The translations under genes and the position numbers were made by a program. Shown piece after piece: positions 38,079 through 55,657 of a DNA stretch of 64,000 bases. Source of the stretch: Labrys sp. KNU-23. GTDB taxonomy: Bacteria > Pseudomonadota > Alphaproteobacteria > Rhizobiales > Labraceae. The notes under the pieces are model-generated. The model was not told where the DNA came from. It made no database searches and saw only the letters and a list, made by a program, of their open reading frames with translations. Location: the NCBI RefSeq assembly GCF_008330945.1, contig NZ_CP043488.1, positions 1,426,001 through 1,490,000 of the forward strand, given 5' to 3'. How positions within the stretch are numbered: position 1 is the first letter of the stretch; the number at the start of each line of letters is the position of its first letter.

Positions 38079-39020
38079 ATGGCAGTAGGAACCGGGATGG
38101 CTGGACATGCGATCGCGACGACGAAATCTTCCTCCTCGAGGAAGGCTCTGGGTCGCTACGGCTTCGTGATCCCGGCAGTGGCGTTATTCGTCGTCTTCAT
38201 CGCCTATCCGATCCTCTGGGTCCTGGGCCAGAGTTTCTATACCAAGGACGCGGCTGGCACTCCTTCGCTGAGCCTGTCGGCAAACTACATCGGCGTCCTG
38301 CGCGACCCGACATTCTGGGTGGTCGTGCGCAACATGACGCTCTGGGCCGTGATCACCATCCCGGTGCAGATGCTGATCGGTGGCCTGCTCGCCTATTTCA
38401 TCGAACGCCACACAAATCGGTTGCGCGGCTTTTTCCGCACGATGTTCTTCCTGCCCGTGGTGACATCGGTTTCCGTCGTCAGCCTCGTCTGGGTCCAGAT
38501 CTACGCGCCCTATTATGGCATCGCCCAGGAATATCTGAAGCATGTGGGGATCGTGATGTCGTCCTCGCCCATCGGCGATGCCAAGACCGCGATCTATGCC
38601 CTCATCATCGTGAATATCTGGCAGTGGACCGGGTTTTCGATGCTGATGTACATCGCCGGCATTGCGAACATGCCGAGCGAAATCCTCGATGCGGCCCGTA
38701 TCGACGGCGCCACCGGCTGGCGCCTGGCTGTGAATGTCGTGATACCGATGCTCGCACCGGCGACCAAGTCGCTGTTGTTGCTCGGCATCATCGGTACGCT
38801 GCAGACCTTCCCGATCGTCCATCTGATGACCGGCGGCGGTCCCAACCACGCCAGCGAAGTATTCGGCACCTACATTTTCAAGCAAAGCTTCATCCTCAAC
38901 GATAGCGGAGGCGGAGCGGCGCTCTCGGTTATAGTCCTGCTGCTCGCCCTGGCGCTTTCGCTGATCCAGATCGTTCTCCTCGGCACCCGCCTCACGCCTG
39001 CGTCGAAGGAGGGGTCATGA
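38079..39020 (+). CDS. CUT1 sugar ABC transporter permease (MalF/UgpA type)
   Basis: Inner-membrane permease of 313 residues; start 38079 follows CGGAGAAGAAGAC. The frame is open upstream but overlaps the binding-protein gene. About six hydrophobic segments are seen, beginning YGFVIPAVALFVVFIAYPIL. The cytoplasmic EAA loop reads EILDAARIDGATGWRLAVNV near residue 210-230. Its stop overlaps the second permease start by four bases. Confidence 0.93.
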   Translation: MAVGTGMAGHAIATTKSSSSRKALGRYGFVIPAVALFVVFIAYPILWVLGQSFYTKDAAGTPSLSLSANYIGVLRDPTFWVVVRNMTLWAVITIPVQMLIGGLLAYFIERHTNRLRGFFRTMFFLPVVTSVSVVSLVWVQIYAPYYGIAQEYLKHVGIVMSSSPIGDAKTAIYALIIVNIWQWTGFSMLMYIAGIANMPSEILDAARIDGATGWRLAVNVVIPMLAPATKSLLLLGIIGTLQTFPIVHLMTGGGPNHASEVFGTYIFKQSFILNDSGGGAALSVIVLLLALALSLIQIVLLGTRLTPASKEGS

Positions 39021-39850
39021 CCAGCCTCACGCGCAACCAGGTCCGCTCGTTTATCATCCACCTCGTGCTGTTCATCGTGCTGGCGCTCTGGATGGTTCCG
39101 CAGATCTACATGCTCTCGATCGGACTGCGGACCCCGGCCCAGGCCTTCGACGCCTCTCTCGTCACCTGGCCCGTCACCTTCGACAATTTCGTCACGGTGA
39201 TCCGGGACAATCCTCTCAGCAGGATCTTCCTGAACAGCCTTATCGTCACGGTTGCGACCGTGGCGATCGTCGTGGCGATCTCTTCGCTTTTTGCTTTCGC
39301 CTGTGCGGTGCTGCGCCTGAAAGGGACGCTTTTCATCTATACGGCCCTTTTGACCACGCTGATGGTACCCCTCGCCTCGCTGGTTCTGCCCCTTGCAATC
39401 CTTCTGAAGAATTTCGGCTGGATCAACACCTATATCGGCCTGATCATGCCCTATGCCGCGCTTGGCGTGCCCTTCGCCATGGTGATCCTCAAGGCCTTCA
39501 TGGAGGACTCGCCGCAGGAGCTGTTCGAAGCGGCGCGCGTCGACGGATGCACTCCCTGGCAGACCTATTGGCACGTGGCGCTGCCGCTGGTACGCCCGGC
39601 CCTGGTCTTCGTGACCATCTGGCAATTCATCGTGACCTGGAACGAATTCTTCCTGGCCCTGATCGTCCTGACCAAGGCCGAGATGAAAACGCTCACCATC
39701 GTTCCGATGCAGTATTCCGGCCTCTACATGGCCAATCCGGGCGCCTTGTTCGCGATCCTCACCCTGATCGCGCTCCCCCTGATCTTCCTCTACGTGCTGG
39801 TGCAGAGAGCCTTTGTTCGAGGTCTGCTGGCCGGCGCGGTGAAAGGCTGA
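39017..39850 (+). CDS. CUT1 sugar ABC transporter permease (MalG/UgpE type)
   Basis: Second permease, 277 residues. The first segment is IIHLVLFIVLALWMVPQIYM, and the EAA loop ELFEAARVDGCTPWQTYWHV lies near residue 165-185, typical of MalG. ATGA overlap with the MalF-type gene shows translational coupling; the ATPase follows after three bases. Confidence 0.93.
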   Translation: MTSLTRNQVRSFIIHLVLFIVLALWMVPQIYMLSIGLRTPAQAFDASLVTWPVTFDNFVTVIRDNPLSRIFLNSLIVTVATVAIVVAISSLFAFACAVLRLKGTLFIYTALLTTLMVPLASLVLPLAILLKNFGWINTYIGLIMPYAALGVPFAMVILKAFMEDSPQELFEAARVDGCTPWQTYWHVALPLVRPALVFVTIWQFIVTWNEFFLALIVLTKAEMKTLTIVPMQYSGLYMANPGALFAILTLIALPLIFLYVLVQRAFVRGLLAGAVKG

Positions 39851-39853
39851 GGC

Positions 39854-40942
39854 ATGGCCACGCTATCGATCGACAACATCACCAAGCGGTTCGGAAACTA
39901 CTCGGTCATACCGGAACTCTCCCTGACCATACCCGATGGGGAGTTTTGCGTGCTGGTCGGGCCCTCGGGTTGCGGGAAGTCAACCCTGTTGCGGATCATT
40001 GCCGGGCTCGAGCCGATCTCATCGGGCCGGATCCTCATCGACGGCACCGATATGAGTGCGGCGGAGCCGACGGAGCGCGGCGTGGCGATGGTCTTCCAGT
40101 CCTATGCGCTCTACCCGCACATGGATGTCAGGCGAAACATCGGCTTCGGGTTGGAGATCGCCCGCACGCCGCGTAACGAGATCTCGGACCGGGTTGCGAA
40201 GGTGGCCGACAAATTGCGCCTGTCCACCTATCTTCGCCGCAGGCCGCGGGAGCTCTCGGGCGGCCAACGCCAGCGCGTTGCGATAGGACGGGCGATTACC
40301 CGCAAGCCCAGGCTCTTCCTCCTGGACGAGCCCTTGTCGAACCTCGATGCGGCACTGCGCGTCGGCATGCGGCTCGAGATCGCCCGCCTCAAGGCCGAAC
40401 TCGCATCCACGATGATTTACGTCACCCATGACCAGGTCGAGGCCATGACGCTGGCCGACCGCATCGTGGTGATGAATGCCGGCCGCATCGAACAGGTCGG
40501 CCCGCCGCTGGAGCTCTATGAAAGGCCGGCCAATCTCTTCGTTGCCGGTTTCATCGGCTCGCCGGCCATGAACCTCCTGAAAGGCAGGGTCGAAGCCATG
40601 GTCGACGGGCAAATATCCATTGCACTGGAGATCGGGGCTCATGTGCGCGTCTCCCCGGCCACCGGCTTGAAGCCCGGAGACCATGTAACCTTGGGCATCA
40701 GGCCGGAGCATGTGACCTATTCCCTGGACGGGGGGCCTGCCGATTACGTCGGCCAGGCCCACATGGTCGAGATGCTGGGCAGCGACACCTTCATTCATCT
40801 GCGCTGCAACGACGAAGCCCTGGTTATCCGCGACAGCGCGGGCCGCCGCGCCCGGGCGGGAGATCAGGTTGCTTTGTCCTTCCCACAGGGAGCTTGCCAC
40901 TTGTTCGACGCTGCCGGCCTGCGCGTTTCATACGCGAACTGA
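39854..40942 (+). CDS. CUT1 sugar ABC transporter ATPase (UgpC/MalK type)
   Basis: ATPase of 362 residues. Walker A GPSGCGKST at ~37-45, Q-loop VFQSYALYPHMDV, signature LSGGQRQRVAIGRAI, Walker B LFLLDEPLSNLD, H-loop YVTHDQVEAMTLADR. The C-terminal ~120 residues form the OB-type regulatory domain (GFIGSPAMNLLKG; LGIRPEHV). It completes the importer with the two permeases. The SDR gene follows 65 bases later. Confidence 0.94.
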   Translation: MATLSIDNITKRFGNYSVIPELSLTIPDGEFCVLVGPSGCGKSTLLRIIAGLEPISSGRILIDGTDMSAAEPTERGVAMVFQSYALYPHMDVRRNIGFGLEIARTPRNEISDRVAKVADKLRLSTYLRRRPRELSGGQRQRVAIGRAITRKPRLFLLDEPLSNLDAALRVGMRLEIARLKAELASTMIYVTHDQVEAMTLADRIVVMNAGRIEQVGPPLELYERPANLFVAGFIGSPAMNLLKGRVEAMVDGQISIALEIGAHVRVSPATGLKPGDHVTLGIRPEHVTYSLDGGPADYVGQAHMVEMLGSDTFIHLRCNDEALVIRDSAGRRARAGDQVALSFPQGACHLFDAAGLRVSYAN

Positions 40943-41007
40943 CCAACTCACTCCGCTCGCAGCGCAAATGCATCAGACACGACAAAGACTTGCAAAGGAG
41001 ACGACAA

Positions 41008-41736
41008 ATGACCGACTTCAACGGGCGCACTATCCTGGTCACTGGCGGTAGCGGCGGGATCGGGGGAGCCACCGTGCGCCACCTCGTCAAGGCCAATGCC
41101 AAGGTCATCGCGAGCGGGCGTTCACAAAGTGCGCTGGACGCGATCGCCAAGGAAACAGGCTGCCGCACTCTGGCGTTCGATCTTGCGTCGGAAGAGGAGA
41201 TCCGCGGCGCACTGGAAGGACTCGATCTATGGGGGGTCGTCAATTGCGGCGGCTTTGGCGGAGAGATCGCCACCCCGATGGACACCGATATTGCGATTTT
41301 CGACAAGGTGATCAGCATCAACGCCCGCGGTGCGCTGATCGTCACCAAATATGCCACCCAGTCGATGGTTCGGCTTGGAAAAGGCGGCGCGATCGTCAAT
41401 GTTTCCAGCCAGGCCGCGCTGGTGGCTCTCGACGGTCACATCTCCTATGGATCATCCAAAGCCGCGCTCGACAACATCACGCGTGTCTCGGCACTCGAGC
41501 TCGGTAAATACAACATTCGCGTCAACAGCGTGAATCCCACCGTGGTCATGACGCCGATATCATCGGGACATTGGAGCCAGCCCCACGTCGCCGAGCCTTT
41601 CTTGAAGAACATGCCACTGGGCCGTTGGGCCACCGAAGACGAGATTGCCGCTCCCATTGTATTCCTGCTGAGTGATGCGGCTTCGATGATCACCGGCGTC
41701 TCGCTTCCAATCGATGGCGGCTACACCTGCAGATAG
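41008..41736 (+). CDS. SDR-family dehydrogenase, L-xylulose reductase-like
   Basis: Short-chain dehydrogenase of 242 residues from ATG 41008, after AAAGGAGACGACAA. TGGSGGIGG is at 12-20, ASGRSQSALDAI after strand 2 suggests NADP(H), and Ser133/134, Tyr147, Lys151 (YGSSK) form the active site. The plan, with a very short strand 3-4 region (LDLWGVVNCGG), resembles DCXR-type L-xylulose/carbonyl reductases. As last gene of a DeoR-controlled CUT1 operon it probably oxidises the imported polyol or reduces its ketose. Confidence 0.88.
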   Translation: MTDFNGRTILVTGGSGGIGGATVRHLVKANAKVIASGRSQSALDAIAKETGCRTLAFDLASEEEIRGALEGLDLWGVVNCGGFGGEIATPMDTDIAIFDKVISINARGALIVTKYATQSMVRLGKGGAIVNVSSQAALVALDGHISYGSSKAALDNITRVSALELGKYNIRVNSVNPTVVMTPISSGHWSQPHVAEPFLKNMPLGRWATEDEIAAPIVFLLSDAASMITGVSLPIDGGYTCR

Positions 41737-42597: not shown

Positions 42598-42601
42598 TCA
42601 T
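42482..42601 (-). pseudogene. Short coupled reading frame behind the ferredoxin reductase
   Basis: ATG at 42601 overlaps the reductase stop (ATGA) and opens 39 codons beginning MTAVFIDRLIDGKPFAAGL and ending AEMPCPVE. The coupling implies that a real gene once followed; the frame then breaks off. I do not recognise the family. Confidence 0.4.
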
Positions 42602-43791
42602 GCGCCCCCCTTGAGAAACGACTTCAGGCCATGACCGGCATCGACGAGCCGATCGGGAGAACATACGACGTTCTTCTCGATGATTTTCTCGGAAAGCCGG
42701 ATGTCGCGCGCGACGGCGTTTCCTGGGCCGATTCCTGCCGCCGCTTGCAGGCGGTTATTCGCGTCCAGCTCGAAACGCAGCCAGCCCCCGTCCGGCAGAT
42801 CGCGACGCACGGAAAGGCGCAAGGGATCATGCAAGCCGACAGCCTGCAGGCCGAAGTCGAAATGATCCGACCAGAACCAGGGCAGGGCCGCAAAGGAAGC
42901 GCCCTCCCCGCGCATCGACCGCGCCGCGAAGGCTCCCTGATCACAAGCGTTTCGCCAGGTTTCAAAGCGCATCCGGCCATAGCGCGGATGATCGACTGCC
43001 GCACAGTCGCCGGCTGCGAAGATCCACGGGTCGGAAGTGACCAGACGGCTATCGACCACGATGCCGTTGGCGCAGGCAAGGCCGGCCGAATCCGCAAGGC
43101 GGATATCCGGCTCGATTCCGACAGCGGCAATCATCAGGTCCGCCTCGATCGCGAGTCCGTCGGCGAGCGTTACGCCATTTCGTTCCACGCTGTGGATGCG
43201 AGCATCAAAACCAAAAGTCGTGCCCTCCTGGCGATGTCGTTCGACAATCGCCTCGGCGATCTCCGCCGGCACTCCTCTACCGAGCGCACGCGGTCCCACC
43301 TCAAGGACATGGACCTTCATGCCCCGGCGTTTGAGTTCTGCAGCCATTTCCAGGCCGATCAAGCCGGCACCGATGACGACCGCCCTCCTGCCCGTGGCAA
43401 CGTTGCCATAGATCGCATCGGCATCCGTCAGCGTGCGCAGCCCCCGCGCATGGCCATCCGGATCGCATCCCAGCCGCCGCGGCAGCGCCCCCGTTGCAAG
43501 CAACAGCCGATCATAGGGGAGGCTGGATCCATCGGCCAGGACGACCGCCTTGCCCTCGCGATCGATCGATTTGGCGGCCAGTCCAAAACGAACCTCGACG
43601 CCCGCGAGGTCGACCTGGATCGGACGATGATGGCCACCCGTTTCCCGGTCCGGTTTCGAGAGGGCGGGCCTGTCGTAGGATGGCATGCCTTCGCCCCCGA
43701 GGAGCGTGACATGCGGCTCGCCTGCAGCGCGCAGGGCGATGGCAGCACGCAGGCCAGCCTCGCCCGCGCCGATGATGACATGGTGCGTCAT
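42598..43791 (-). CDS. NADH-dependent ferredoxin reductase (MocF-like, FAD)
   Basis: Flavoprotein reductase of 397 residues from ATG 43791 (the frame is open 24 codons further). FAD motif VIIGAGEAGLRAAIALRAAG starts at ~4, NAD motif VVIGAGLIGLEMAAELKRRG at ~140, and IFAAGDCAAVDHPRYG binds the flavin end. The C-terminal reductase domain (PWFWSDHFDFGLQAVG) marks the rubredoxin/ferredoxin reductase group of oxygenase systems. With the MocE-type ferredoxin (46477) and the membrane hydroxylase (49882) of the same operon it would complete an electron chain. The intervening genes are on the same strand with short gaps. Confidence 0.92.
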   Translation of the reverse strand: MTHHVIIGAGEAGLRAAIALRAAGEPHVTLLGGEGMPSYDRPALSKPDRETGGHHRPIQVDLAGVEVRFGLAAKSIDREGKAVVLADGSSLPYDRLLLATGALPRRLGCDPDGHARGLRTLTDADAIYGNVATGRRAVVIGAGLIGLEMAAELKRRGMKVHVLEVGPRALGRGVPAEIAEAIVERHRQEGTTFGFDARIHSVERNGVTLADGLAIEADLMIAAVGIEPDIRLADSAGLACANGIVVDSRLVTSDPWIFAAGDCAAVDHPRYGRMRFETWRNACDQGAFAARSMRGEGASFAALPWFWSDHFDFGLQAVGLHDPLRLSVRRDLPDGGWLRFELDANNRLQAAAGIGPGNAVARDIRLSEKIIEKNVVCSPDRLVDAGHGLKSFLKGGA

Positions 43792-43843
43792 TGCCGTTTC
43801 CGATAGTGGGAGCCGCCCTTGGCGGGCGGCCCAGGTCTGTGTA

Positions 43844-44845
43844 TCAGCCAAGAACGGATGCAAGCGAGACGGGAGCCCCCGTCTTCACGGAAAGCGTCGC
43901 TGCCTCGGCCATGGCGAGGGCGGCAACGCCGTCTTCAAGCGTCACCGGCAGCGGCTTGCCGCTATCGACAGCTTCCACGAAAGCCGCCCATTCCGCGGCA
44001 TAGGCCGGCATGTAGCGTTCCAGGAAGAAGTAGGTCGGCTTGGCGCCGGTCACCCCTTGTGTCGTCGACTTCACCACGGTGTTTTCGAGCATGTTCTGGG
44101 CCTGGAGCAGCCCTTCCGAGCCCAGCAGTTCGAGCCGCTGATCGTAGCCGTAAACGGCACGGCGGCTGTTCTTGATGACGGCGATGCGGCCATCTGCATA
44201 GGTGAGCGTCACCACGGCGGTATCGACGTCCCCTGCCCCGCCGATCTCCGGATCGACGATGGACGAGCCGACCGCCGTCACCATGGCCGGCGATGCGCCC
44301 ATGATGAAGTTCGCCATGTCGAAGTCGTGGATCATCATGTCCCGGAACAGACCGCCCGAAACCTTGATATAGGCGACCGGAGGCGGCGCTGGGTCAAAGG
44401 AAGTGATCGACAACAACTCCGGTTTACCGATTTCGCCGCCATCGACGGCCTTCTTCAGAGCCGAAAAATTCGGGTCGAAACGCCGGTTGAAGCCGATCAT
44501 CACCGGACAGCCGGAGGCAGCGACGGTCTTCTGGCAGACCTGCGCACGCGCGAGGCTAAGATCGACCGGCTTTTCGCACAGGACTGCCTTGCCGGCTGCC
44601 GTCGCCTTTTCGATGAGATCGGAATGGGTGTCGGTGGAGGTGGCGATCAGCACGGCACCGATCGAGCTGTCGCCCAGAATGGCAGCCGTGTCGCGTGCCT
44701 CGGCGCCGTACTGGGCTGCAATCTTCTCGGCTGCTGTCGTGTTGATGTCGGAGACGGCAGCAAGCGTGCTGCCGGGATGAGCGGAGATCGCCGTGGCGTG
44801 CACGCCGGCGATACGGCCAGCCCCCAGAAGACCGACTTTAAGCAT
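43844..44845 (-). CDS. Gfo/Idh/MocA-family dehydrogenase (inositol 2-dehydrogenase-like)
   Basis: NAD(P)-dependent sugar or cyclitol dehydrogenase of 333 residues. GLLGAGRIAGVHA at 5-17 binds the nucleotide and AVLCEKPVDLSLARA near 90-100 holds the Glu-Lys-Pro motif with the catalytic Lys. GGLFRDMMIHDFDMANFIMG contributes the H-D-x-D active-site stretch. This is close to IolG and to MocA of the rhizopine cluster. It is flanked by the PanB-like and ferredoxin reductase genes in one leftward operon. Probably oxidises an inositol-type ring hydroxyl after demethylation; substrate inferred. Confidence 0.92.
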   Translation of the reverse strand: MLKVGLLGAGRIAGVHATAISAHPGSTLAAVSDINTTAAEKIAAQYGAEARDTAAILGDSSIGAVLIATSTDTHSDLIEKATAAGKAVLCEKPVDLSLARAQVCQKTVAASGCPVMIGFNRRFDPNFSALKKAVDGGEIGKPELLSITSFDPAPPPVAYIKVSGGLFRDMMIHDFDMANFIMGASPAMVTAVGSSIVDPEIGGAGDVDTAVVTLTYADGRIAVIKNSRRAVYGYDQRLELLGSEGLLQAQNMLENTVVKSTTQGVTGAKPTYFFLERYMPAYAAEWAAFVEAVDSGKPLPVTLEDGVAALAMAEAATLSVKTGAPVSLASVLG

Positions 44846-44863
44846 AGGATTTTCCTCTATTGA

Positions 44864-45688
44864 TCAGAGACCGAGTTCGGCCTTGAAAGCGTCGAACTCC
44901 GCGTTGCCAATGGCGACGTTGTGCTGAGGCTGCGGGTAGGCCCCCGTGTTCACATCCTCGATGAACTCCCGGAATGCCGCGATGCGCTCTTTTTGAAGCC
45001 TGTCGAATTCGGCGGCAAAATGGCGGTAGGTCTTGGCATGGCGCGGCTTGTGGCCACCGGTGTGACCGAGCACATCTTCCGCGAACAGATACTGTGCATC
45101 AGCCCCCGGCCCGGCGCCCATGCCGAGCATGATCATCGAGGTATTCTTAGAGATCAGTTCGCCCACCCGATCCGGCACGACCTCCAATTCCGCGCCGAAG
45201 CAGCCGATCGCCTCCAGCTGCTTGACCAGCCGGAAGACTTCGGCCGCCTCCCGGCCGGTCTTGCCGACCGCGCGAAAGCCGGTCCAGGTGATGTAGGAAG
45301 GAATGAGGCCGACATGGGCGACAATCGGGATATGGTTGTCGCAAAGCACTTTCTGGATATCCAGTGAAGCGGCACAGTAGAAGCAGTCGCCGCCCATGGC
45401 GGCGAAATGGAAGGCCGCGCGCAGATAATCTTCGGCTGTCGCAAGCGGTCGTCCCTCGAATTGACCCCAGCCGCCATAGGGAAGGCCGACCTGCACGAAA
45501 CAGCGCCCCGCCGCCTCGCGCATCTCAGGCGAAAAGAAGCGTCCCTCGATGGAGAGCATGTGAATGCCGGCGGCGGCGGCAGCAGCAGCCTCCTCAAGCG
45601 TCGTGACATAGAGCATCGAGATCTTTTGACCGCGCTCCTTCATGGCGCGGATATCGGCGACCGTCGGGCGAGTGTTCTTGTGAACCAT
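44864..45688 (-). CDS. PanB-like ketopantoate hydroxymethyltransferase-family protein
   Basis: 274-residue TIM-barrel protein related to PanB (5,10-methylene-THF:2-oxoisovalerate hydroxymethyltransferase). ATG 45688 is used; 30 upstream codons lack homology. Matches: VADIRAMKERGQKISMLYV, PIVAHVGLIPSYITWTGFRA, CFGAELEVVPDRVGELIS with the catalytic Glu position, and MLGMGAGPGADAQYLFAEDV. But the metal-binding Asp of the PanB motif VGDS is replaced by SIEGRF and that of ADLPF by VGLPYG. So a different substrate or cofactor is likely. It lies amid catabolic genes, far from panC, which supports a non-pantothenate role. Confidence 0.82.
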   Translation of the reverse strand: MVHKNTRPTVADIRAMKERGQKISMLYVTTLEEAAAAAAAGIHMLSIEGRFFSPEMREAAGRCFVQVGLPYGGWGQFEGRPLATAEDYLRAAFHFAAMGGDCFYCAASLDIQKVLCDNHIPIVAHVGLIPSYITWTGFRAVGKTGREAAEVFRLVKQLEAIGCFGAELEVVPDRVGELISKNTSMIMLGMGAGPGADAQYLFAEDVLGHTGGHKPRHAKTYRHFAAEFDRLQKERIAAFREFIEDVNTGAYPQPQHNVAIGNAEFDAFKAELGL

Positions 45689-45692
45689 GAGA

Positions 45693-46472
45693 CTACACCG
45701 TAAACGCGTTGCGGAAAGCTTCGAGCGCCACTTCCGGATCGCCGGCGGCGAAGGCCTCCATGCCGACGGGACCGCCATAGCCCATGGCCTTCAGCGCCTT
45801 GGCGATGCCATGCCAGTTCACTTCACCGGTGCCGGGCTCGCAGCGGCCTGGCACGTCCGCGACCTGGATCTCGCCGATAAAGGGCAGGCATTTGCGGCAG
45901 AGTTCGATCAAATTCCCCTCGCCGATCTGCGCGTGATAGAGATCGAGGTTCAACCTGAGCCGCGGATGGCCGACGCTGGACACGAGGGCAAGCGTGTCCT
46001 CCGCTCTGCCGAAGGGGACGCCAGGATGATCGACCGAAAGGTTGAGGTTTTCCAGCGTGAAGGTGACGCCCTCCTCTTCCGCCATGTCGACGACACGGCA
46101 TAGGGTCTCGCGGGCCTTCAGCCACATGGCGCCGGTGACCACCTCGATCGGCTGCACAGGCAGTCCGCCGTCGCCAAGGCCGGTCCCGTGCAGGTTGAGG
46201 CGCTGCACGCCAAGACGCTTGCCGACCTGCGCTGTTTCCCGGGCCGTACGCAGCAGCTCGGCTGCGCCTTCATCGTCGGTCAAGCGACCGGTGAGGTAGC
46301 CGTTCATGATGGTAAAGCTTGCGCCGGTGGCTTCGAGCTTCGCCAGATCGTGCTCCGGCCAGTTCCAAAGACCGACGCCAAAGCCCATTTCCTTGAGGCG
46401 GGAGGCGCGCCATTCGATGGGGCGATCCCGCCAGATCATTTCGGCGCAAGCCGCCAATACAAACTGTGTCAT
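45693..46472 (-). CDS. Sugar phosphate isomerase/epimerase family protein (Hyi/MocC-like)
   Basis: AP-endonuclease-2-type TIM barrel of 259 residues from ATG 46472. FVLAACAEMIWRDRPIEWRA at the start, LENLNLSVDHPGVPFG near 140 with the first Glu ligand, LNLDLYHAQIGEGNL (Asp, His) and VADVPGRCEPGTGEVNWHGI (Asp, Arg, Glu) follow the hydroxypyruvate isomerase layout. GPVGMEAFAAGDPEVALEAF holds the last Glu. The related MocC of rhizopine catabolism and IolE/IolI of inositol catabolism share this fold. Four bases separate it from the PanB-like gene and from the Rieske gene, showing one operon. Confidence 0.88.
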   Translation of the reverse strand: MTQFVLAACAEMIWRDRPIEWRASRLKEMGFGVGLWNWPEHDLAKLEATGASFTIMNGYLTGRLTDDEGAAELLRTARETAQVGKRLGVQRLNLHGTGLGDGGLPVQPIEVVTGAMWLKARETLCRVVDMAEEEGVTFTLENLNLSVDHPGVPFGRAEDTLALVSSVGHPRLRLNLDLYHAQIGEGNLIELCRKCLPFIGEIQVADVPGRCEPGTGEVNWHGIAKALKAMGYGGPVGMEAFAAGDPEVALEAFRNAFTV

Positions 46473-46476
46473 GTCG

Positions 46477-46788
46477 TCAGATCTCAACAAATACGTCGCC
46501 GTTTTCGACCTTCACCGGCCAGGCCTTGAGGTTGATGCAGGCAGGCGCGCGCATCGCCTCCCCGGTCTTGTAGTCGAAATGCGCGCTGTGCTTGGGGCAC
46601 TCGATGATGCCGTCCATCACAAGGCCATCGGCGAGGTGCACCTGTTCGTGGGTGCAGATGCCGTCGATGCAGAAGAACTCGTCTTCCGGGCTGCGTATCA
46701 CCAGGAAGGTACGCCCGCCGTGATCGAAGCGGATCGACTCCTCGAGTTCGACATCTACGGTTGCGCAAGCGCGGGTCCAGGTCGCCAT
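46477..46788 (-). CDS. mocE: MocE-family Rieske [2Fe-2S] ferredoxin
   Basis: Soluble Rieske ferredoxin of 103 residues, start 46788 (the upstream 29 codons are not family-like). Cluster ligands: Cys45-x-His47 in ICTHEQVHLADG and Cys64-x2-His67 in ECPKHSAHFDY, the exact C-x-H-x16-C-x2-H spacing. It carries electrons from a flavin reductase to an oxygenase. NCBI and rhizopine literature name this type MocE. In the same operon are a ferredoxin reductase and a membrane hydroxylase, its probable partners. Confidence 0.93.
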   Translation of the reverse strand: MATWTRACATVDVELEESIRFDHGGRTFLVIRSPEDEFFCIDGICTHEQVHLADGLVMDGIIECPKHSAHFDYKTGEAMRAPACINLKAWPVKVENGDVFVEI

Positions 46789-46834
46789 GGCTTCTTGTTC
46801 CTTGGGTCTTTCAGAGGGTTGCCGGTCCGGGGTC

Positions 46835-47662
46835 CTAAACCGCCGGGCCAATATGCTGGGGCGCATGTCCGTCATGGGCCGTCATGTAGCCTTCGATCTC
46901 GGCTTCGAGGTTCGCCATGGTTTCACCGCCGGCCATCAGGTCGGTGATTTCCTCACGCGTTTTCTCACCTTTGCGGAAATCGGCGGCCACGGCGCCGCGG
47001 ATCAGCACCGCGAAATGGTCCCCTACCGCCATGGCGTGCATGACCTGATGGGTGATGAAGACGACCGCGAGTCCCCGCCGCTTGGCCTCATGGACGATCC
47101 GGAGTACATGGGTCGCCTGCTTTACGCCGAGGGCTGCCGTGGGCTCGTCGAGGATCAGCACCTTCGCGCCGAAATGCACGGCGCGGGCGATGGCAAGCGA
47201 CTGCCGTTCACCGCCTGAGAGCCCACCCACGAGCCTGTCGCCATCATCGATCCGCGTGATGCCGAAATCGCGAACGGCCTTCACGGCGACCTCGTTCGCC
47301 TTCTTGCGGTCGAAGATCTTGAACGGGCCCCAGCCCTTCGTCGGTTCGACGCCAACGAAGAAGCTCCGGCCTATCGACATGAGCGGGAACGTGCCGCCGA
47401 ACTGGTGCACCGTGGCTATCCCCCGATCCGCCGCAGCCCGGGGGGTCTCGAAGCTCGCCGGCTCTCCCTCGAACAGGATGGTGCCGGAGGTCGGCCGATG
47501 CACACCTGACAGGATCCGGATCAGCGTGGACTTGCCCGCTCCGTTGTCGCCGAGCAGACACAGGACTTCGCCGGCCTTGATGTCGAGCGAGATGTCATGG
47601 AGCACGTCGATCGGGCCGAAGGACTTGCAGACATTGGTAAGCTTGAGGATGGACGTTGACAT
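46835..47662 (-). CDS. CUT2 sugar ABC transporter ATPase, single domain
   Basis: ATPase of 275 residues from ATG 47662. Walker [10 protein letters not shown] at ~36-44, [16 protein letters not shown]-loop, signature [15 protein letters not shown], Walker [14 protein letters not shown]-loop [15 protein letters not shown]. Unlike RbsA it has one nucleotide-binding domain, so two copies would pair with the permease dimer, as in the Xyl/Frc-type FrcA group. The C-terminus ends with a His-containing tail ([10 protein letters not shown]). It lies eight bases from the permease gene. Confidence 0.93.
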
Positions 47663-47670
47663 GGCGAACC

Positions 47671-48708
47671 TCACTTCTTCTTCGGCGAATAAGAGAGCGC
47701 CATGCTTCGGAAGGTGTTGTTCATGAGAACGGCCAGGAGAAGCATCACGCCGATGATGAGGCTCGACCAGTTGCGGTCGAAGGAGGTGAAATAGATACCC
47801 TGATTGACCACCGCGAAGGTGATGGTGCCGAAGAAGATCCCGATGATGGAACCGAAGCCGCCGGTGAGCAGCACCCCACCGACGACCACCGAGATGATCG
47901 AATTGAAGATGAAGGACATGCCGGCCGAAACCTGAGCGGAATTGAACAGGATCGCCTGGCATGTACCGACGAAGGCAGCACTCGTGGAGGACAGCACGAA
48001 GAGGGCGATCGTGAGTTTGGTCGTCGGAATGCCGGCGTTGCGCGCGCTCACCCGGTCACCGCCCATGGCGAAGATCCAGTTGCCGGTCGGAGAATAGTGA
48101 ATGACGTAGACATAAACCGCCGTCAGCGCCAGCCACCAGAAGATGATGACCTGGAACGTATTGCCGACGAACTGGCCGAAAAGGAATTTTGCCAGTTCCG
48201 GCGCCTTGAGCGCGACGCTTGTCGTGCCGGTCAGATGGACAGAAAGACCGAGAACGAGGCCGGCAACGGCGAATAGCGTACCGAGCGTGACGATAAGGGA
48301 CGGCACGTTTGTGCGGACGACCAGTATGCCGTTTATCAGGCCGATGACGATGCCGAACCCGAGGGATGCGGCAATGCCGAGCCAGATCGGCATGCCGTAA
48401 TAGCCCGAGATGATCGCGACGGTCATCGAGCCGGCCGGGATCATCGAACCGATGGAAATGTCGAGTTCGCCGGCAATCATCAGGAGGCCGATCGGAAAGG
48501 CGACGATGCCCAGATTGGCGGCGACATTCAGCCAGCTTGCGGCACCGGCCGGCTTCAGGAAGTCGGCGCTTCCGAAGGCAAGAAAGAAAACGAAGACGCC
48601 GAGAAGACCGAGAAAGGCCCCGGCCTCCGGACGACGGAACAGATCACCGAAAGAAAAGCCATCGAAACGCGCGGATGCGGTCGGCTGACTTGCCGTTTTC
48701 GAGTTCAT
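47671..48708 (-). CDS. CUT2 sugar ABC transporter permease
   Basis: Inner-membrane permease of 345 residues, start 48708 after AAGGGAACTC. The BPD_transp_2 pattern is clear: [20 protein letters not shown] (~85-105), [20 protein letters not shown] and [19 protein letters not shown]. Many hydrophobic helices. The binding protein precedes it and the ATPase follows; together they form the importer of the moc-like operon. Confidence 0.93.
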
Positions 48709-48741
48709 GAGAGTTCCCTTCCGACCCTCCCGTATCGTTGT

Positions 48742-48773
48742 GGCCGCTCCCGGGGGAGGAATCGGGAGCGGCC
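48742..48773 (-). promoter_or_regulatory. Intercistronic hairpin after the moc-like binding-protein gene
   Basis: GGCCGCTCCCG (48742-48752) and CGGGAGCGGCC (48763-48773) form an 11-base stem around ten bases, just behind the binding-protein stop at 48788. Confidence 0.6.
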
Positions 48774-48787
48774 TGCAAGAGGGCGGC

Positions 48788-49762
48788 TTAGCGCGCGCCC
48801 TTGGAAACACCGGAGAGCGTGGATTCGATGTTCGAGGCGTCGACGATGCCAGGACCGGTCAGGACCGGCTTCACCGGAAGATCCGTGCCGAAATCGATGT
48901 GGGATGCCAGCAGCGAGACGGCGAGGAGCGACTGGAGATAGGGCTGCTGGTCGACAGCGAAAAGCTGCGAACCATTCTTGATACGATCGAGCCCCGCTTC
49001 GTTGAAATCAAAGGAACCGAGCTTGACGTTGGCGCCCTTGCCAGCCTGCTGGATGCCGCTCGCCGCCGCATCAGCGTCGCCGGCGCCGATCGTGATGACG
49101 CCATCGATTGCGCCGTCTTGCGTCAAGGTTGCCTTGATGGCTTCGGCGATCGCCGTCGGGTCACCGAAGCTGGTTGCGGGCAGTGGCAATTGCTTGCCGG
49201 TACCGCTCGACTTGGCAACGCCGTCGATCACCCCTTTGCAACGCGCTTCCTGATTGGCGCTACCCGGCAGGGTATTGACACAGAGCACGTTCTTTTGGCC
49301 GTGTTTGCCGAAATACTCTCCGCCGGCCAGGCCCGCGAGATATTCGTCAGATCCGACATAGTTGATGGCGCCGAGCTCCTTGGCCTTATCAAGCGAGCCG
49401 GAATTCATAAGGATGACCTTGATGCCGCCGCTGACAGCGGCCTTGATTGCCTCGTCCTCCGCCTCCGGAACCCAGTCAGGAACAGCCAGGCCCTTGACGC
49501 CCTGGCTGATGGCGGTACGCACCAGACCCGCGGCATCGGGACCGAGATTGTCATAGGTCTGGAGCTGGAGATAGGTAACCTTGCCTCCATTCGCCTCGAC
49601 GACGTGGCGTGAATCATCGACCCCCTTCTTGATCTTGCTCCAGAAGGCATCATCGGTTTTGCCACCGACGACCGCGATGTCAGCGGCGAAGGCGCCTGTG
49701 GCAGTGAGACAGATCGCGACCGAAGTCACGAGCGTACTGGCAAGAGTGGTCCGTTTCGTCAC
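48788..49762 (-). CDS. CUT2 sugar ABC transporter substrate-binding protein (MocB-like)
   Basis: Periplasmic receptor of 324 residues from a GTG at 49762 preceded by GGAGGAAATTCG; the frame is open upstream but not homologous. Signal: TLASTLVTSVAICLTATGAF, cleavage near FA-AD. Mature part: DIAVVGGKTDDAFWSKIKKG, VKGLAVPDWVPEAEDEAIK, IGAGDADAAASGIQQ, KLGSFDFNEAGLDRIKNG. It belongs to the Peripla_BP_4 group that includes MocB and inositol- or ribose-binding proteins. It follows the hydroxylase gene and precedes permease and ATPase. Confidence 0.92.
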   Translation of the reverse strand: MTKRTTLASTLVTSVAICLTATGAFAADIAVVGGKTDDAFWSKIKKGVDDSRHVVEANGGKVTYLQLQTYDNLGPDAAGLVRTAISQGVKGLAVPDWVPEAEDEAIKAAVSGGIKVILMNSGSLDKAKELGAINYVGSDEYLAGLAGGEYFGKHGQKNVLCVNTLPGSANQEARCKGVIDGVAKSSGTGKQLPLPATSFGDPTAIAEAIKATLTQDGAIDGVITIGAGDADAAASGIQQAGKGANVKLGSFDFNEAGLDRIKNGSQLFAVDQQPYLQSLLAVSLLASHIDFGTDLPVKPVLTGPGIVDASNIESTLSGVSKGAR

Positions 49763-49881
49763 CGAATTTCCTCCCTGTTTGTCCGCGTTATTGCGGGTTG
49801 TCGGACGTTCTGAACTTGCGGGCTGGGCGTGCCCGTCTCCCAAGCCCCCCGTCGTTGCAGACGCTCGGGAACGGGATGCGA

Positions 49882-50910
49882 TCAGGAGTTCGCACGCTCC
49901 GCCTTGGCGTTCATTCGTGCCTTCTTCTTCGCGAAGCGCGCCTGCATCTGCGCATCGCCTTCCTTCGTGCCGTCGTGCCAGGTGCCTAGCCACTTATCGA
50001 GCGGGATCAGGCCATCGCCGCCATAGTTCACCTCGAAATATTTGTGGTGCAGGTAATGGGCATAGGCGTGGGTATCGAGCGGCGTCTCCTCGGTGATTTC
50101 CAGCTTGTCGAAGCCGATATGCCCGTTGACGGCGCCAAAACCGGCGATATGGAGCTGAAACATCGCGACGATCGGATTGGAGGGAATGACGAGGTGCCAG
50201 AAGGCGACCGCGTGATAGAGAAATCCCTCGATCGGATGCATGGACAGCGACGACCACGGCGACGGATTCACCGAATTGTGGTGGACCGAGTGGATCCAGC
50301 GATAGAGCGGGCCCCAATGAATCAGCCGGTGGATGCAGAAGAAATGCACCTCATGAATCATCGGCGCGACGACGACGAGGAAGGCTAGATAGTAGGGGTG
50401 CTCGGACCAACCCAGCCACGGCACCCAGCCATTGGCGAAGACCCACAGGAACAGGACCTCGACCAGAGTCCACAGCGGGATGGAAACGAAGAAGGAGCGC
50501 AAGAAATTGTCGATGTTCTGGCTCTTGAACCAGAAGACGTCGGAGGGCTGTTCGCTGGGGAACTTGGCGTTGTACTTGAAGCGGTTGCCCTGCTTGCGCT
50601 TGACATAGAAGAAGAGTTCGACTGAGCCGTAAAAGATGAAAATCGCGGCCGCGTTCACCGCATAGAGCCAAAGTGCCCACCCCCAAGTGAGCGTCTTCAT
50701 TGTCTCGACGTCCGGCACGACATAGAACCAGTAGAGGAGTGCCGTCGCCATGTGGAAGGCGTTCCATGGCCAGATGTATTCCGGGAGCCATTTGAGTATG
50801 GCGAGAGCCTTTGGTGGCCACGCCCAGAACGGCGCTACCTCGATATGACCGCTTGGGGCCCAGTCGCCGCGCTTGTTTCGAGTTCCGTAGTCGAGATCAT
50901 CCATCGCCAT
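49882..50910 (-). CDS. Membrane di-iron hydroxylase, sterol desaturase/fatty acid hydroxylase family
   Basis: Integral membrane oxygenase of 342 residues, start 50910 (or the second ATG at 50904). The FA_hydroxylase histidine boxes are complete: HEVHFFCIHRLIHW, IHSVHHNSVN, and HAYAHYLHHKYF at the end of the domain. Several hydrophobic segments (MATALLYWFYVV, LVEVLFLWVF, LAFLVVVAPM) flank them. Such enzymes hydroxylate C-H bonds using two irons and electrons from ferredoxin. Placed first in the operon with a MocE ferredoxin and a ferredoxin reductase, it takes the place of MocD (a related membrane oxygenase) of rhizopine O-demethylation. Confidence 0.9.
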   Translation of the reverse strand: MAMDDLDYGTRNKRGDWAPSGHIEVAPFWAWPPKALAILKWLPEYIWPWNAFHMATALLYWFYVVPDVETMKTLTWGWALWLYAVNAAAIFIFYGSVELFFYVKRKQGNRFKYNAKFPSEQPSDVFWFKSQNIDNFLRSFFVSIPLWTLVEVLFLWVFANGWVPWLGWSEHPYYLAFLVVVAPMIHEVHFFCIHRLIHWGPLYRWIHSVHHNSVNPSPWSSLSMHPIEGFLYHAVAFWHLVIPSNPIVAMFQLHIAGFGAVNGHIGFDKLEITEETPLDTHAYAHYLHHKYFEVNYGGDGLIPLDKWLGTWHDGTKEGDAQMQARFAKKKARMNAKAERANS

Positions 50911-51140
50911 GCCTTCCGGGTGCTCAACGCTTCGCTGGGATCGGACGAACGCCATTGGCGTGCAGGCATAGCGACGCCCCTTCAGCCGATATGGCCAAAG
51001 AATGCCAAGCCCAATCTTGTCGAAGGCGTTCTTCCCTGAAGCGAGCAACTGCCGTCACATTTGCCCGCCGTCCTCTGATTAGAACAATGCCAACTTGACG
51101 CGTATCAAATCAAGGCGCATGTCTTTCAGAGAGAATAATC

Positions 51141-51187
51141 GTATCATTCATCTCAAGAATTCACCTAAATGATACACTTTATATCAT
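51141..51187. promoter_or_regulatory. Repeated TATCAT half-sites in the moc-like divergent promoter
   Basis: GTATCAT (51141-51147), ATGATAC (51169-51175) and ATATCAT (51181-51187) form two inverted pairs upstream of the LacI start at 51196: a wide one (51141/51169) and ATGATA-CACTTTA-TATCAT. A further GTATCA occurs near 51105. The 285-base gap to the hydroxylase gene contains no other feature. Confidence 0.6.
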
Positions 51188-51195
51188 GAGGAGCC

Positions 51196-52224
51196 ATGAA
51201 GAGGCCGACGATCCGCGACCTGGCCGATGCCGCCGGTGTTTCGATCGCCACCGCCAATCGGGTCCTGTCGGGCGTCGATGGGGTGCGCGCGAACACCCGT
51301 GAAAAGGTGCGGGTGGCGGCGCAGACCATCGGATTCTACGGGCTGGGGGCGATTGAATCGCGCAATGCGGCCGCGCGGCCAAAGTACCGCTTCGGCATCA
51401 TCCTTCTCCAGCCGCACCGACCGTTCTACCAGTTGGTCGCGCGGGCTCTCTTGGACGCGGCGGCCGCGGAGGAAGCGGTCGATATCGACCTCAGGATCGA
51501 GCATCTGGAGGATCTTTCACCCCAGAACACGGCGGATCGGGCGCTGGCACTCGCCAAGGAGTGCGACGCGATCTGTGTCACCACGGCCGTACATCCTGTC
51601 GTAGCCCAGGCTATCGCCGACATCGCAACCCGGGGCATTCCCGTTTTTGCATTGATATCGCAACTCTCGGCGACGGGACAAATTCACTATATCGGCCTCG
51701 ACAATTGGAAAGTGGGGCGAACCGCAGCCTGGGCCTTCGAGCACATCTGCAAAGTCCCGGGCAAAATCGGCCTTCTGATGGGCAATCCGCGTTATCGAAA
51801 CCAGGAAATGAATGAGACGGGGTTCCGATCGTATTTTCGTGAACACGCTCGCGATTTCGTTCTGCTTGAACCCCTATCGACCTTTGAATCCTCCGCCGTC
51901 GCGCAGGAAATGACCGAGCGGCTGCTCCAGGAACATGCCGATCTCGCCGGTCTCTATGTTGCGGGTGGCGGTATCAGCGGGGTGCTTGCTGCGCTTCGCA
52001 CGACTGGCCGAGCCGGCACGCTGGTCGTCGTCGGCTACGAGTTGATGGACAATGTGAAGGCCGCGCTCATCGACGGCACGCTGACGCTTTCGATCGCCCA
52101 CCCGCTCGCAAGATTGGCCAAGGAAACGATTGCTGCGATGACGAAAGCCGTACAGGCCCCAAACCGCGTTGCGAATTATACATCCATCGTACCGTTCGAC
52201 ATCTACACGCGGGAAAATATCTAG
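51196..52224 (+). CDS. LacI-family transcriptional regulator
   Basis: Regulator of 342 residues with HTH TIRDLADAAGVSIATANRVL at residues 5-24 and hinge AAQTIGFYGLGAIESR. The ligand domain contains FGIILLQPHRPFYQLVARAL, CDAICVTTAVHPVVAQAI, GLLMGNPRYRNQEM and LVVVGYELMDNVKAALIDGT, like periplasmic sugar-binding proteins. It diverges from the moc-like operon, with TATCAT repeats between, and probably represses it. A LacI regulator replaces the GntR-type MocR known from rhizopine clusters. Confidence 0.93.
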   Translation: MKRPTIRDLADAAGVSIATANRVLSGVDGVRANTREKVRVAAQTIGFYGLGAIESRNAAARPKYRFGIILLQPHRPFYQLVARALLDAAAAEEAVDIDLRIEHLEDLSPQNTADRALALAKECDAICVTTAVHPVVAQAIADIATRGIPVFALISQLSATGQIHYIGLDNWKVGRTAAWAFEHICKVPGKIGLLMGNPRYRNQEMNETGFRSYFREHARDFVLLEPLSTFESSAVAQEMTERLLQEHADLAGLYVAGGGISGVLAALRTTGRAGTLVVVGYELMDNVKAALIDGTLTLSIAHPLARLAKETIAAMTKAVQAPNRVANYTSIVPFDIYTRENI

Positions 52225-52689: not shown

Positions 52690-53280
52690 TTACTTATAAT
52701 ACGTATTGATTTGCAGAAATTTGAGAGGAGTTTTAACAGATTTTACAAGACCATGCCAATTTTCAGCATCAAAAAACAGACTATCCCCTGATTCTAAGCT
52801 ATGATTGTTCGATCCATAGCGATATATCATTTCTCCCTCCAGCATGAAAATTAAGGTATGTCCCGCCCCTTGAGATGATACGCAGGAATATTCTTCATCT
52901 TGAATTACTACCAAAGAAGGGTTGGCGTGAAGAAATTCATCGTAAGAACCGACGGGACCAAGATTCAAGTTATAGACTCCCTTTCCAATGGGGAATCCGC
53001 TCGATCCAGTCGCTTCGGCATGCCTGACGAAGACAACTCCACGACGTTCCTCCGTTCTTCGGATCAAAGCGGACAGCGAAACGCCAAGAATTCTTGCCAA
53101 GGACTGTAGAATGGTCAGGGACGCGGTAATGGTACCGCGCTCAATCTTTGACAGAGTACCGCCGGAGATTTGAGCCAATCTTGCAAGATCGACAGCAGAA
53201 ATTCCTTCACGTTCCCTGCAGAAGCGCAGTTCTCGGCCGATTGCGACCGGAAGGCGCTCCTTCTTTATTCTGACCGACAC
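52690..53280 (-). CDS. XRE-family regulator with C-terminal cupin domain
   Basis: Regulator of 196 residues. N-terminal Cro/C1 HTH: LRFCREREGISAVDLARLA, GGTLSKIERGTITASLTILQ (~20-65). C-terminal cupin_2 (~120-190): GAGHTLIFMLEGEMIYRYG and SLESGDSLFFDAENWHGLV. This is the PuuR/SutR-like plan, which often controls amine, amino acid or nitrogen catabolism. Its base composition is clearly richer in AT than the neighbours, suggesting transfer. It lies next to, and in the same direction as, the end of the urea operon; a regulatory link is not shown. Confidence 0.9.
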   Translation of the reverse strand: MSVRIKKERLPVAIGRELRFCREREGISAVDLARLAQISGGTLSKIERGTITASLTILQSLARILGVSLSALIRRTEERRGVVFVRHAEATGSSGFPIGKGVYNLNLGPVGSYDEFLHANPSLVVIQDEEYSCVSSQGAGHTLIFMLEGEMIYRYGSNNHSLESGDSLFFDAENWHGLVKSVKTPLKFLQINTYYK

Positions 53281-53492
53281 AACCTAGCTCTCCTGACAGG
53301 CCACAGTATTCAATGTGTTATCTTCAGTTTGAACAAGAACACGTACCCCAACATGAGAAAAAGACGTCTGCTCATAAGCAGGATGCAGCCGGCCTCTTCT
53401 CATGACTGATGCCGCTTGCGCCTTTACAGAATGGCCGGCGCGAGCGCGTACTGTTTGTCATGCCGTTGGAGCGGGGTGTAGGCACCGGCCTT

Positions 53493-54095
53493 TCAGGCAA
53501 GCCCCCCGAGTAGAGCTGCACCGGCGATCGCAATAAGGGCCCCGGTCGAACGGACGAGGAGCTCTCCCCGCCCGCCCCGCAGATTGCCGATTGCGAGGCC
53601 AGTCCCCACACCAATTGCATGCAGCAAAGCCGTGCCAAGCACGAAACCCACGCCATAGGTGAAGCCCCCGACATTTTCCGGCATCTCGGCTCCATGCGCA
53701 TAACCATGGAAGACCGCAAAAAAGCCGACAAGAGCCATCGCCACGGGTATGGCGGCGCGCAATCGCAAAGCAACGATGGTGCCCAGCACCACCACGGAAA
53801 GACCAATGCCCAGTTCGACGAATGGCAAGGTCACGCCGACAAGCCCCAAGGCGCCACCGAATGCCATGACGCAGACAAAACTCAGGGGGACGAGCCAGAT
53901 TGCCCGCCCGCCCAATTGGGCGGCGAACAGTCCAACAGTGACCATGGCCAGGACATGATCCGGTCCGCTGACGGGGTGGAGGAAACCATGCGCGAGCCCG
54001 CTGGTCGCTCCAATACCCGTATGGGCATTGGCCGTGGCTGTCATGGCGCCGACAAGGATCGCGGCAAGCAGTGGGGCGGTGCAGCGGGATTTCAT
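53493..54095 (-). CDS. ureJ: HupE/UreJ-family nickel permease
   Basis: Membrane protein of 200 residues that probably supplies Ni2+ for urease. Signal-like N-terminus (TAPLLAAILVGAMTATANA) then HTGIGATSGLAHGFLHPVSGPDHVLAMV as conserved family block, whose His and Asp (H-P-x-S-G-x-D-H) are the predicted nickel site. A second block reads FFAVFHGYAHGAEMPEN. It is the last gene of the leftward urea operon, 42 bases behind ureD. Confidence 0.9.
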   Translation of the reverse strand: MKSRCTAPLLAAILVGAMTATANAHTGIGATSGLAHGFLHPVSGPDHVLAMVTVGLFAAQLGGRAIWLVPLSFVCVMAFGGALGLVGVTLPFVELGIGLSVVVLGTIVALRLRAAIPVAMALVGFFAVFHGYAHGAEMPENVGGFTYGVGFVLGTALLHAIGVGTGLAIGNLRGGRGELLVRSTGALIAIAGAALLGGLA

Positions 54096-54137
54096 GGGCC
54101 TGTCTCCTTTTTAAAATCAGTCAACGTCCCCGAGGTC

Positions 54138-55013
54138 TTATTTTCTCCGGGGCATAGGCGAATGGCCGAATGCGGCTTGGCAACACAGTGAGAACAGCCG
54201 ATCGGAGACCTTGCGAGCCGCAATCGCATCTGCGGCAAGACAGCGAATGCCCCAACCGGCTGCATTGGGGAGCGCACTCACACCAATGATCGAGCTGCCT
54301 TCGACATGCGAGCTCTGCAGGTCGGGTAGGGAAGGCAGACGAGAAGCGGGCCCGAGAATGAGATAGCTTGCCATGACCTGCCAGCGGCCCATCGGAGAAG
54401 CCCGATCGCGCAGCGCATCGCCGATAAGCTGGAAGCAGTCGCTCACGACCAGCCTTCCGCTGCGATCCCGGATCACCACGTCCGAACTGAGCCGATCGAA
54501 ACAGCGCCCTTCGGCCCGGGGGTCATGCATGCTGAAAGCATCGCAAAGGAACAGGACAGCGTCGTCGGCCAGGCTGGCCTCCAGGCCGGCCGCAAAAAAC
54601 GCGCCGGGAAAAAGCACGAGCGGGTCGGGCGCATAGGCCAGGAAACCGCCGCTATCGACCCGGATGGCGGTATTCTGACGAGCGGGCTGCCCCTGGCAGT
54701 CGTGGACGATGGTGGCGGCTTGGGTCGTTATATGAGCGGCGGCACCTGCTCCAACGCGAAATCGGCAGGAGAGCCGCTCCCCTCGATAAAGCCCGCCGGA
54801 TGACGATTGCTGGTAGAGCGTAAGTAGCGACGGAATGGCCGGATCCAGCCGGAAGGGCCGCGTCAAATGAAACGGGTAGGAGACGAACTGGCGCGCGAGC
54901 GTCGTTCGCGCACCATGCCGGGTGAAGTCCAATTCGAAACGGCCCCGATGTTCGGCCATGATGTGCAAGGCCGGCTCGCCAGGTGACGATGGTGGCTGCC
55001 AATGCTGCGTCAT
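54138..55013 (-). CDS. ureD: Urease accessory protein UreD (UreH)
   Basis: Chaperone of 291 residues that, with UreF and UreG, loads nickel into urease. Start 55013 overlaps the ureG stop by four bases (ATGA). Family features: [60 protein letters not shown] (TTQAATKVY-like block), [19 protein letters not shown]. The C-terminal region with [19 protein letters not shown] is typical. In many rhizobia ureD is first in the urease operon; here it is near the end. Confidence 0.9.
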
Positions 55014-55657
55014 CGGAACAACACTTCGGCCAGAATGCGATCGACAATTGCATCGATGCCCTCGGCCTTGCGGCAATTGGTCAGCACCAGGTGGCGACCA
55101 CGGCGGGCGGCCGCCGCCTCGCTCGTCATGCGATCGAGATCAACGCCGACATAGGGAGCCAGATCGCTCTTGTTGATCACGAGCAGATCGCATTTAAGTA
55201 CGCCTGGGCCATTCTTGCGGGGAATGTCGTCGCCTCCGGCGACGTCGATGACGAACATCCACCAATCGACGAGGTCCAGCGAGAAGGTGGAGGCCAGATT
55301 GTCGCCGCCGCTCTCGATCAGGATCAGTTCGGCATCGGGAAAGAGCAGCTCCAGCTCGTCGGCAGCGGCGATGTTGAGAGTGGGATCTTCCCGAATGACC
55401 GTGTGCGGACACGCCCCGGCCTCGACAGCCGCAACCCTCGCCGGGTCGATCAGGCCGGAACGCCGCAGACGCTCGGCATCTTCCGCTGTCACGAGATCGT
55501 TGGTGACGACTGCCAGCGAGACACCTCGTGCCGCAAAGGCAGGAATCAGCTGTTCGATGAGCGCCGTCTTGCCCGAACCGACCGGCCCGCCAATGCCAAC
55601 CCTGGCAGCGCCCACGCGGGTCGATGGCCGATCCTTCAACAGATACGTCGCGTCCAT
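55010..55657 (-). CDS. ureG: Urease accessory GTPase UreG
   Basis: SIMIBI-class GTPase of 215 residues that drives nickel insertion. P-loop [17 protein letters not shown] at ~21-37, the nickel site Cys-Pro-His in [13 protein letters not shown], the switch region [16 protein letters not shown], and the guanine motif [17 protein letters not shown]. Length is normal. It lies four bases behind ureC and overlaps ureD. Confidence 0.95.

Follow-up and report, generated by a model that had tools for sequence, protein, structure and literature searches.

We analysed a stretch of 64,000 nucleotides from Labrys sp. KNU-23 (contig NZ_CP043488.1, positions 1,426,001 to 1,490,000), hereafter the window, in which positions 42598-52224 hold ten open genes (Table 1). 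A LacI-family regulator lies on the plus strand and nine genes follow on the minus strand in the order hydroxylase, CUT2 binding protein, permease, ATPase, MocE-family ferredoxin, TIM-barrel protein, PanB-like protein, IolG-type dehydrogenase and ferredoxin reductase. On the same strand as the hydroxylase, the next eight genes, which run from the binding protein through to the reductase, follow at gaps of 4 to ~120 bases; the true starts are probably internal to some of the listed open reading frames. The ten-gene operon with hydroxylase, MocE, reductase and PanB-like enzyme described in the first-pass annotation of this DNA was confirmed by Pfam and NCBIfam models and by a gene order that recurs in most relatives examined. 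The PanB-like gene persists in such operons while the hydroxylase beside it changes between two folds, PF04116 and PF00487.

The hydroxylase scored 63.5 bits against PF04116 (cut-off 31) and has eight histidines that are invariant across 21 alignment rows (H194, H198, H207, H210, H211, H285, H288 and H289). Its structure model reached a predicted local distance difference test score (pLDDT) of 75.8, and a fold search returned no match at E < 0.001, with Scs7p among the weak matches. The ferredoxin exceeded the cut-off of the MocE model TIGR02377 (157.6 against 136.15). Together with a reductase of the Pyr_redox_2/Reductase_C type, these assignments support the proposed electron chain of the MocDEF kind, and the earlier statements that the hydroxylase is of the sterol-desaturase type and that the regulator is LacI (PF00356 and PF13407) rather than MocR also held.

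The likeness of the remaining enzymes to their moc counterparts is weaker than first supposed. The dehydrogenase, formerly described as MocA-like, is of the IolG type: it scored 426.8 against TIGR04380 (cut-off 355), has 4hkt as its best PDB match and shares 28% identity with the protein encoded at the mocA position of the Sinorhizobium meliloti rhizopine locus. The TIM-barrel protein is not MocC/IolE-like, as TIGR04379 matched it at E 1.2e-4 only; it matches hydroxypyruvate isomerase and ketose epimerase models, every score lying below cut-off (for instance, 103 bits against TIGR03234). The suggested MocB-like receptor does belong to the CUT2 family, but its likeness to MocB is weak: its top NCBIfam model, the rhizopine receptor NF052284, gave 160 bits against a cut-off of 420, and BLAST against the S. 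meliloti protein encoded at the mocB place found no significant similarity (best E 0.71). The best PDB match of the binding protein by sequence is 4ru1.

The PanB-like protein shares the predicted fold of PanB and scored 117 bits against PF02548, but only 77.2 bits against the NCBIfam panB equivalog, for which the cut-off is 207.55. After PanB, its fold neighbours include aldolases and 2-methylisocitrate lyase. For residue positions we used the numbering of Escherichia coli PanB, in which we take Asp45 and Asp84 to bind the metal, with Lys112 and Glu114 as further reference positions. Asp84 is replaced by Gly and Lys112 by Tyr in 82 of 82 alignment rows and in all 81 hydroxylase-linked rows; Glu at position 114 occurs in none of the 82 or the 81 rows, while His136 and Glu181 are kept in every row of both. 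In the window protein, Gly occupies the Asp45 column, at a place where the alignment is gapped. Since the score falls below the cut-off and Asp84, Lys112 and Glu114 are replaced, PanB chemistry cannot be transferred from the name, and as a true panB gene is located elsewhere in the Labrys genome, a plain PanB identity was rejected. A separate PanB-like branch (L122 and L124-L129) carries Met at position 112 and has no hydroxylase nearby. In the tree, each PanB-like gene took its label from the closest hydroxylase no more than 8.5 kb away; L081 is labelled hydroxylase-free, yet a PF00487-type gene adjoins it according to the neighbourhood scoring.

A scan with one genome per species yielded 155 PanB-like stretches, and the analysis retained the best 80; 63 of these loci had flanks long enough to be scored within 9 kb, and 17 were left out for short flanks. 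Hydroxylases, MocE, PurU and other neighbours were scored with hidden Markov models built from the fetched loci. A PF04116-type hydroxylase lies near the PanB-like gene in 59 of the 63 loci, and any membrane di-iron hydroxylase in 60. MocE was likewise found near 59 and not near four (L058, L073, L075 and L081). The ATPase (61), binding protein (58), TIM-barrel protein (53) and LacI regulator (52) are similarly frequent. A small protein, mostly of ~100 residues, is encoded downstream in 14 of the 80 loci (for instance, L007 12867-13181), and the one example scanned has an RpiR-type helix-turn-helix domain.

A less biased sample comprised 397 evenly drawn genomes of the order, in which the window PanB-like protein as query found 53 places in 34 genomes, three of them in Labrys itself, and MocE occurred at 87 places in 59 genomes, these counts not being corrected for kinship. 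The survey of PanB-like and MocE co-occurrence proposed in the first-pass annotation came out positive: MocE lies within 10 kb of 40 of the 53 PanB-like genes, and a PanB-like gene lies near 40 of the 87 MocE genes. Both were found in 30 genomes, only the PanB-like gene in 4, only MocE in 29 and neither in 334. A hydroxylase of the PF00487 or PF04116 type is present at 48 of the 53 places within the fetched ~8-9 kb on each side.

Both hydroxylase folds occur within the Labrys genome, where all three PanB-like genes adjoin a membrane di-iron hydroxylase. The two outside the window (L113 9325-11242 and L114 9534-13090) are each beside one of the PF00487 type, and the L114 set additionally holds MocE, reductase, LacI, binding protein and ATP-binding cassette (ABC) transporter genes. 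A feature of a single lineage was rejected, as relatives occur in Rhizobium, Ensifer, Shinella, Mesorhizobium and many rhodobacters, and further ones in two Rhodospirillales-type metagenome-assembled genomes and in 1.4-Mb genomes of the same class. In three of the latter (L115, L116 and L117) a PanB-like gene is accompanied by a PF00487-type hydroxylase, and no MocE was found nearby. DUF1800 and DUF1501 genes adjoin the pair in L117.

The same kind of gene is present in a rhizopine locus. On pSINMEB01 of S. meliloti BL225C (L134), a MocR regulator scoring 763.9 against NF052281 (cut-off 650) adjoins mocD (PF00487), mocE, mocF, a PanB-like gene and purU (329, cut-off 286), and MocC was recognised as IolE (TIGR04379, 394.7 against 290). 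In this locus MocR, PurU, MocC and the PF00487 domain of MocD are clear model results, whereas mocA, mocB, mocE and mocF are named by place and similarity. A PanB-like gene and purU stand behind mocF in three records, namely S. meliloti BL225C, S. meliloti T073 and S. kummerowiae; the BL225C gene (L134 12472-13226) matches in two frames, and those of T073 (L138) and S. kummerowiae (L140) in one. The earlier view that a built-in PanB-like enzyme sets the window operon apart from Moc is thus not supported. The protein at the mocB place of L134 (7006-7950) is absent from the NF052284 matches listed at E 1e-20; this model may therefore describe another receptor. The moc genes were reportedly first described by Bahar in 1998 and Rossbach in 1994. 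Where Haskett et al. (PMC10107442) name the rhizopine units, these are mocDEF, mocR, mocBA and mocC, with no PanB-like gene among them. Among the matches listed in a literature search of open-licence papers, no paper tied moc genes, or demethylation by a membrane oxygenase, to a PanB-like gene.

Other loci keep parts of the set together. On pMHb of Mesorhizobium huakuii 7653R, hydroxylase, MocE, reductase, PanB-like gene, purU and folD stand in a row; plasmids of S. medicae and R. leguminosarum carry hydroxylase, MocE, reductase and PanB-like gene with LacI adjacent. In a Marivivens plasmid, a run of hydroxylase, MocE, PanB-like, TIM-barrel and importer genes continues into iolG-iolC-iolD-iolE-iolB; one hydrolase gene on the opposite strand separates MocE from the PanB-like gene, and a small DUF3329 gene stands ahead of iolB. 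This run, the IolG-type dehydrogenase inside the window operon, and iolD and/or iolE near three of the 80 loci (L016, L021 and L039, with models checked in L021) support a methyl-cyclitol as a likely substrate class, as had been proposed.

With respect to regulation, the perfect ATGATA-N7-TATCAT motif predicted as operator is the sole match in the window, where 0.05 sites are expected at up to one mismatch. An exact copy is present in 1 of 18 relatives, and looser TATCA/TGATA sites, judged by eye, precede LacI in many of them. The CUT2 importer is probably under LacI control. The genes at 52690-55076, on the far side of LacI, encode an XRE-cupin regulator, HupE/UreJ and UreD and probably mark the border of a urease cluster. 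On the other side a plus-strand sugar ABC permease, ATPase and short-chain dehydrogenase/reductase gene (39017-41736) end near the 3' side of the operon.

Table 1. Genes and predicted operator of the Labrys operon (window coordinates)
Feature	Position	Strand	Basis
Membrane di-iron hydroxylase (sterol-desaturase/FA_hydroxylase type), predicted O-methyl hydroxylase	49882..50910	-	PF04116, His clusters
CUT2 periplasmic binding protein, likely start V at 49762	48788..49762	-	PF13407
CUT2 permease	47671..48708	-	PF02653
CUT2 ATPase with single ABC domain	46835..47662	-	PF00005
MocE-family Rieske ferredoxin	46477..46788	-	TIGR02377; start inferred from relatives
TIM-barrel isomerase/epimerase-like protein	45693..46472	-	PF01261
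PanB-like protein, Gly84/Tyr112/His136/Glu181 pattern, predicted C1 (one-carbon) carrier step	44864..45688	-	PF02548
IolG-type inositol 2-dehydrogenase	43844..44845	-	TIGR04380
NAD(P)H ferredoxin reductase, MocF-like role	42598..43791	-	PF07992 + PF14759 (Pyr_redox_2/Reductase_C)
Divergent LacI-family regulator	51196..52224	+	PF00356 + PF13407
Predicted operator ATGATA-N7-TATCAT, in front of LacI	51169..51187		Motif search

We propose, at roughly even chances of being right, that the operon serves the import and oxidative O-demethylation of a methyl-inositol, with the PanB-like enzyme handing the one-carbon unit to tetrahydrofolate. The CUT2 importer would bring in an O-methylated cyclitol, for which D-pinitol is our favoured guess. 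By analogy with MocDEF, electrons would then pass from NADH through the reductase and MocE to the hydroxylase, converting R-O-CH3 to the hemiacetal R-O-CH2OH, and the PanB-like protein may move the hydroxymethyl group or formaldehyde onto tetrahydrofolate to give 5,10-methylene-tetrahydrofolate. In PanB itself, the hydroxymethyl unit moves between folate and a carbon enolate, for whose formation the enzyme uses its metal. Transfer from a hemiacetal would need no metal-bound keto acid enolate, which would explain the changed PanB site. Where folD and purU are present, methylene-tetrahydrofolate could be turned into formyl-tetrahydrofolate and on to formate. IolG would oxidise the demethylated inositol and the TIM-barrel protein would isomerise the inosose, like IolI, which isomerises 1-keto-D-chiro-inositol. 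In the case of pinitol, demethylation would give D-chiro-inositol, IolG its 1-keto form and the isomerase the usual inosose, and the iol pathway could complete the breakdown; the Labrys genome holds two iolE copies above cut-off.

Extended to the family, the proposal would make the PanB-like proteins a separate class, a hydroxymethyl transferase that puts the hemiacetal CH2OH of MocDEF-kind oxygenases straight onto tetrahydrofolate, making methylene-tetrahydrofolate rather than free formaldehyde. They would then be a fourth component still missing from accounts of the rhizopine pathway itself and of many demethylation operons akin to it. We put this wider claim forward as speculative and rather unlikely.

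Several observations weigh against the demethylation scheme. IolG lies near 32 of the 63 loci and the ferredoxin reductase near only 11, which makes the reductase the loosest part of the operon; strains without a linked one probably borrow it from elsewhere. No hydroxylase was found near 3 of the 63 PanB-like genes (L034, L073 and L074). In the order sample, 13 of the 53 have no MocE nearby and five have no hydroxylase, namely L141 (at a contig edge), L179 (a 3-kb contig), L180, L189 (a partial gene) and L190. The predicted one-carbon branch is sparsely linked: of the 63 window-type loci, only 9 have purU and 5 have folD nearby (Pfam checked in one example each), purU at full-length score is near only 2 of the 53 places (L163 and L170), no folD was found near any of the 53, and no PurU above cut-off occurs in the Labrys genome. 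The claimed link to one-carbon folate metabolism is supported as far as purU and folD lie near part of the relatives, but not as far as it was drawn from the PanB name. Loss of the metal is not proven by the alignments either, as acidic residues remain near the old site: one is found no more than 3 columns from Asp45 in 28 of 28 PF04116-linked and 41 of 53 PF00487-linked rows, Asp occupies the Asp45 column itself in 4 of these 53, and for Asp84 an acidic residue no more than 2 columns away is seen in 28 of the 53 PF00487-linked rows. Some distant relatives stand in other sugar surroundings, beside GH4, gluconolactonase and sugar-acid dehydratase genes, and methyl sugars may thus be served too. 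The same search of open-licence papers found no biochemistry for any PanB-like member.

The main rival accepts that a cyclitol is demethylated or oxidised, but makes the PanB-like protein a lyase, hydratase or isomerase acting on the carbon skeleton of the oxidised ring. The replaced PanB residues, the fold neighbours among aldolases and 2-methylisocitrate lyase, the minority of loci with purU or folD and the hydroxylase-free Met112 branch all suit this explanation, which we judge possible though on balance unlikely: the PanB-like gene follows the hydroxylase, often together with MocE, also where no iolG or isomerase gene adjoins. That this linkage holds for both hydroxylase folds and in varied sugar contexts suits a step shared by every demethylation better than one tied to a particular ring. 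Less probable still is a hydroxylase that acts on a C-H bond in the ring or side chain of a cyclitol, aminocyclitol or sugar carrying no methyl group, with no methyl removal. Most enzymes of PF04116 and PF00487 introduce hydroxyl groups or double bonds into carbon chains, but the same kind of PanB-like gene, with purU, lies in the rhizopine locus, whose substrate we take to be an O-methyl cyclitol, and purU and folD are one-carbon genes. That the window holds merely another operon for rhizopine (3-O-methyl-scyllo-inosamine) is very improbable. MocE above cut-off and a rhizopine receptor as the best NCBIfam model of the binding protein would agree with it; however, MocR, a PF00487 MocD and an IolE-type MocC are missing from the operon, no aminotransferase is present among the 18 window proteins scanned, and the receptor scores below cut-off and does not resemble what S. 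meliloti encodes at the mocB position. A plain rhizopine operon was rejected on the receptor, MocR and MocC evidence.

Compared with known systems, the demethylation scheme is closest to S. meliloti mocCABRDEF, with which the window operon shares a membrane di-iron oxygenase, MocE and a reductase, and a substrate that would likewise be an O-methyl cyclitol. The window operon differs in having a PF04116 rather than a PF00487 hydroxylase, LacI rather than MocR and IolG rather than MocA, and in containing a CUT2 importer without an IolE-type MocC. From myo-inositol catabolism it shares the IolG-type dehydrogenase, to which it adds the importer and oxygenase chain. In the passages of PMC10033563 on porphyran degraders, 6-O-methyl-D-galactose is also demethylated oxidatively, giving formaldehyde, but by a cytochrome P450; an alcohol dehydrogenase is named as well, and no PanB-like protein is mentioned there. 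The sections of PMC5789663 on Mimosa pudica root exudate place the iol pathway downstream of moc, as in our scheme, and list pinitol as the most concentrated component (145 uM in the induction medium). On this medium, the mocDEF homologues BN77v1_0504-0506 of R. mesoamericanum rose 1.53-2.11-fold and inositol genes rose too; the authors interpret the mocDEF induction there as rhizopine catabolism, which is a further point against our proposal.

The association is real and more general than the first-pass annotation supposed, and it adds a candidate component to Moc-type demethylation. If the demethylation scheme is true, the name 3-methyl-2-oxobutanoate hydroxymethyltransferase, borne by such genes in many records of rhizobia and rhodobacters, would be wrong and the genes would belong to demethylation; the Gly84/Tyr112/His136/Glu181 signature would permit their sequence-based re-annotation. 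The scheme would also offer an account of where the methyl carbon goes when rhizopine and methyl-inositols are broken down. It may further tie pinitol, a main component of one legume's root exudate (PMC5789663), to a defined module of uptake and oxidation.

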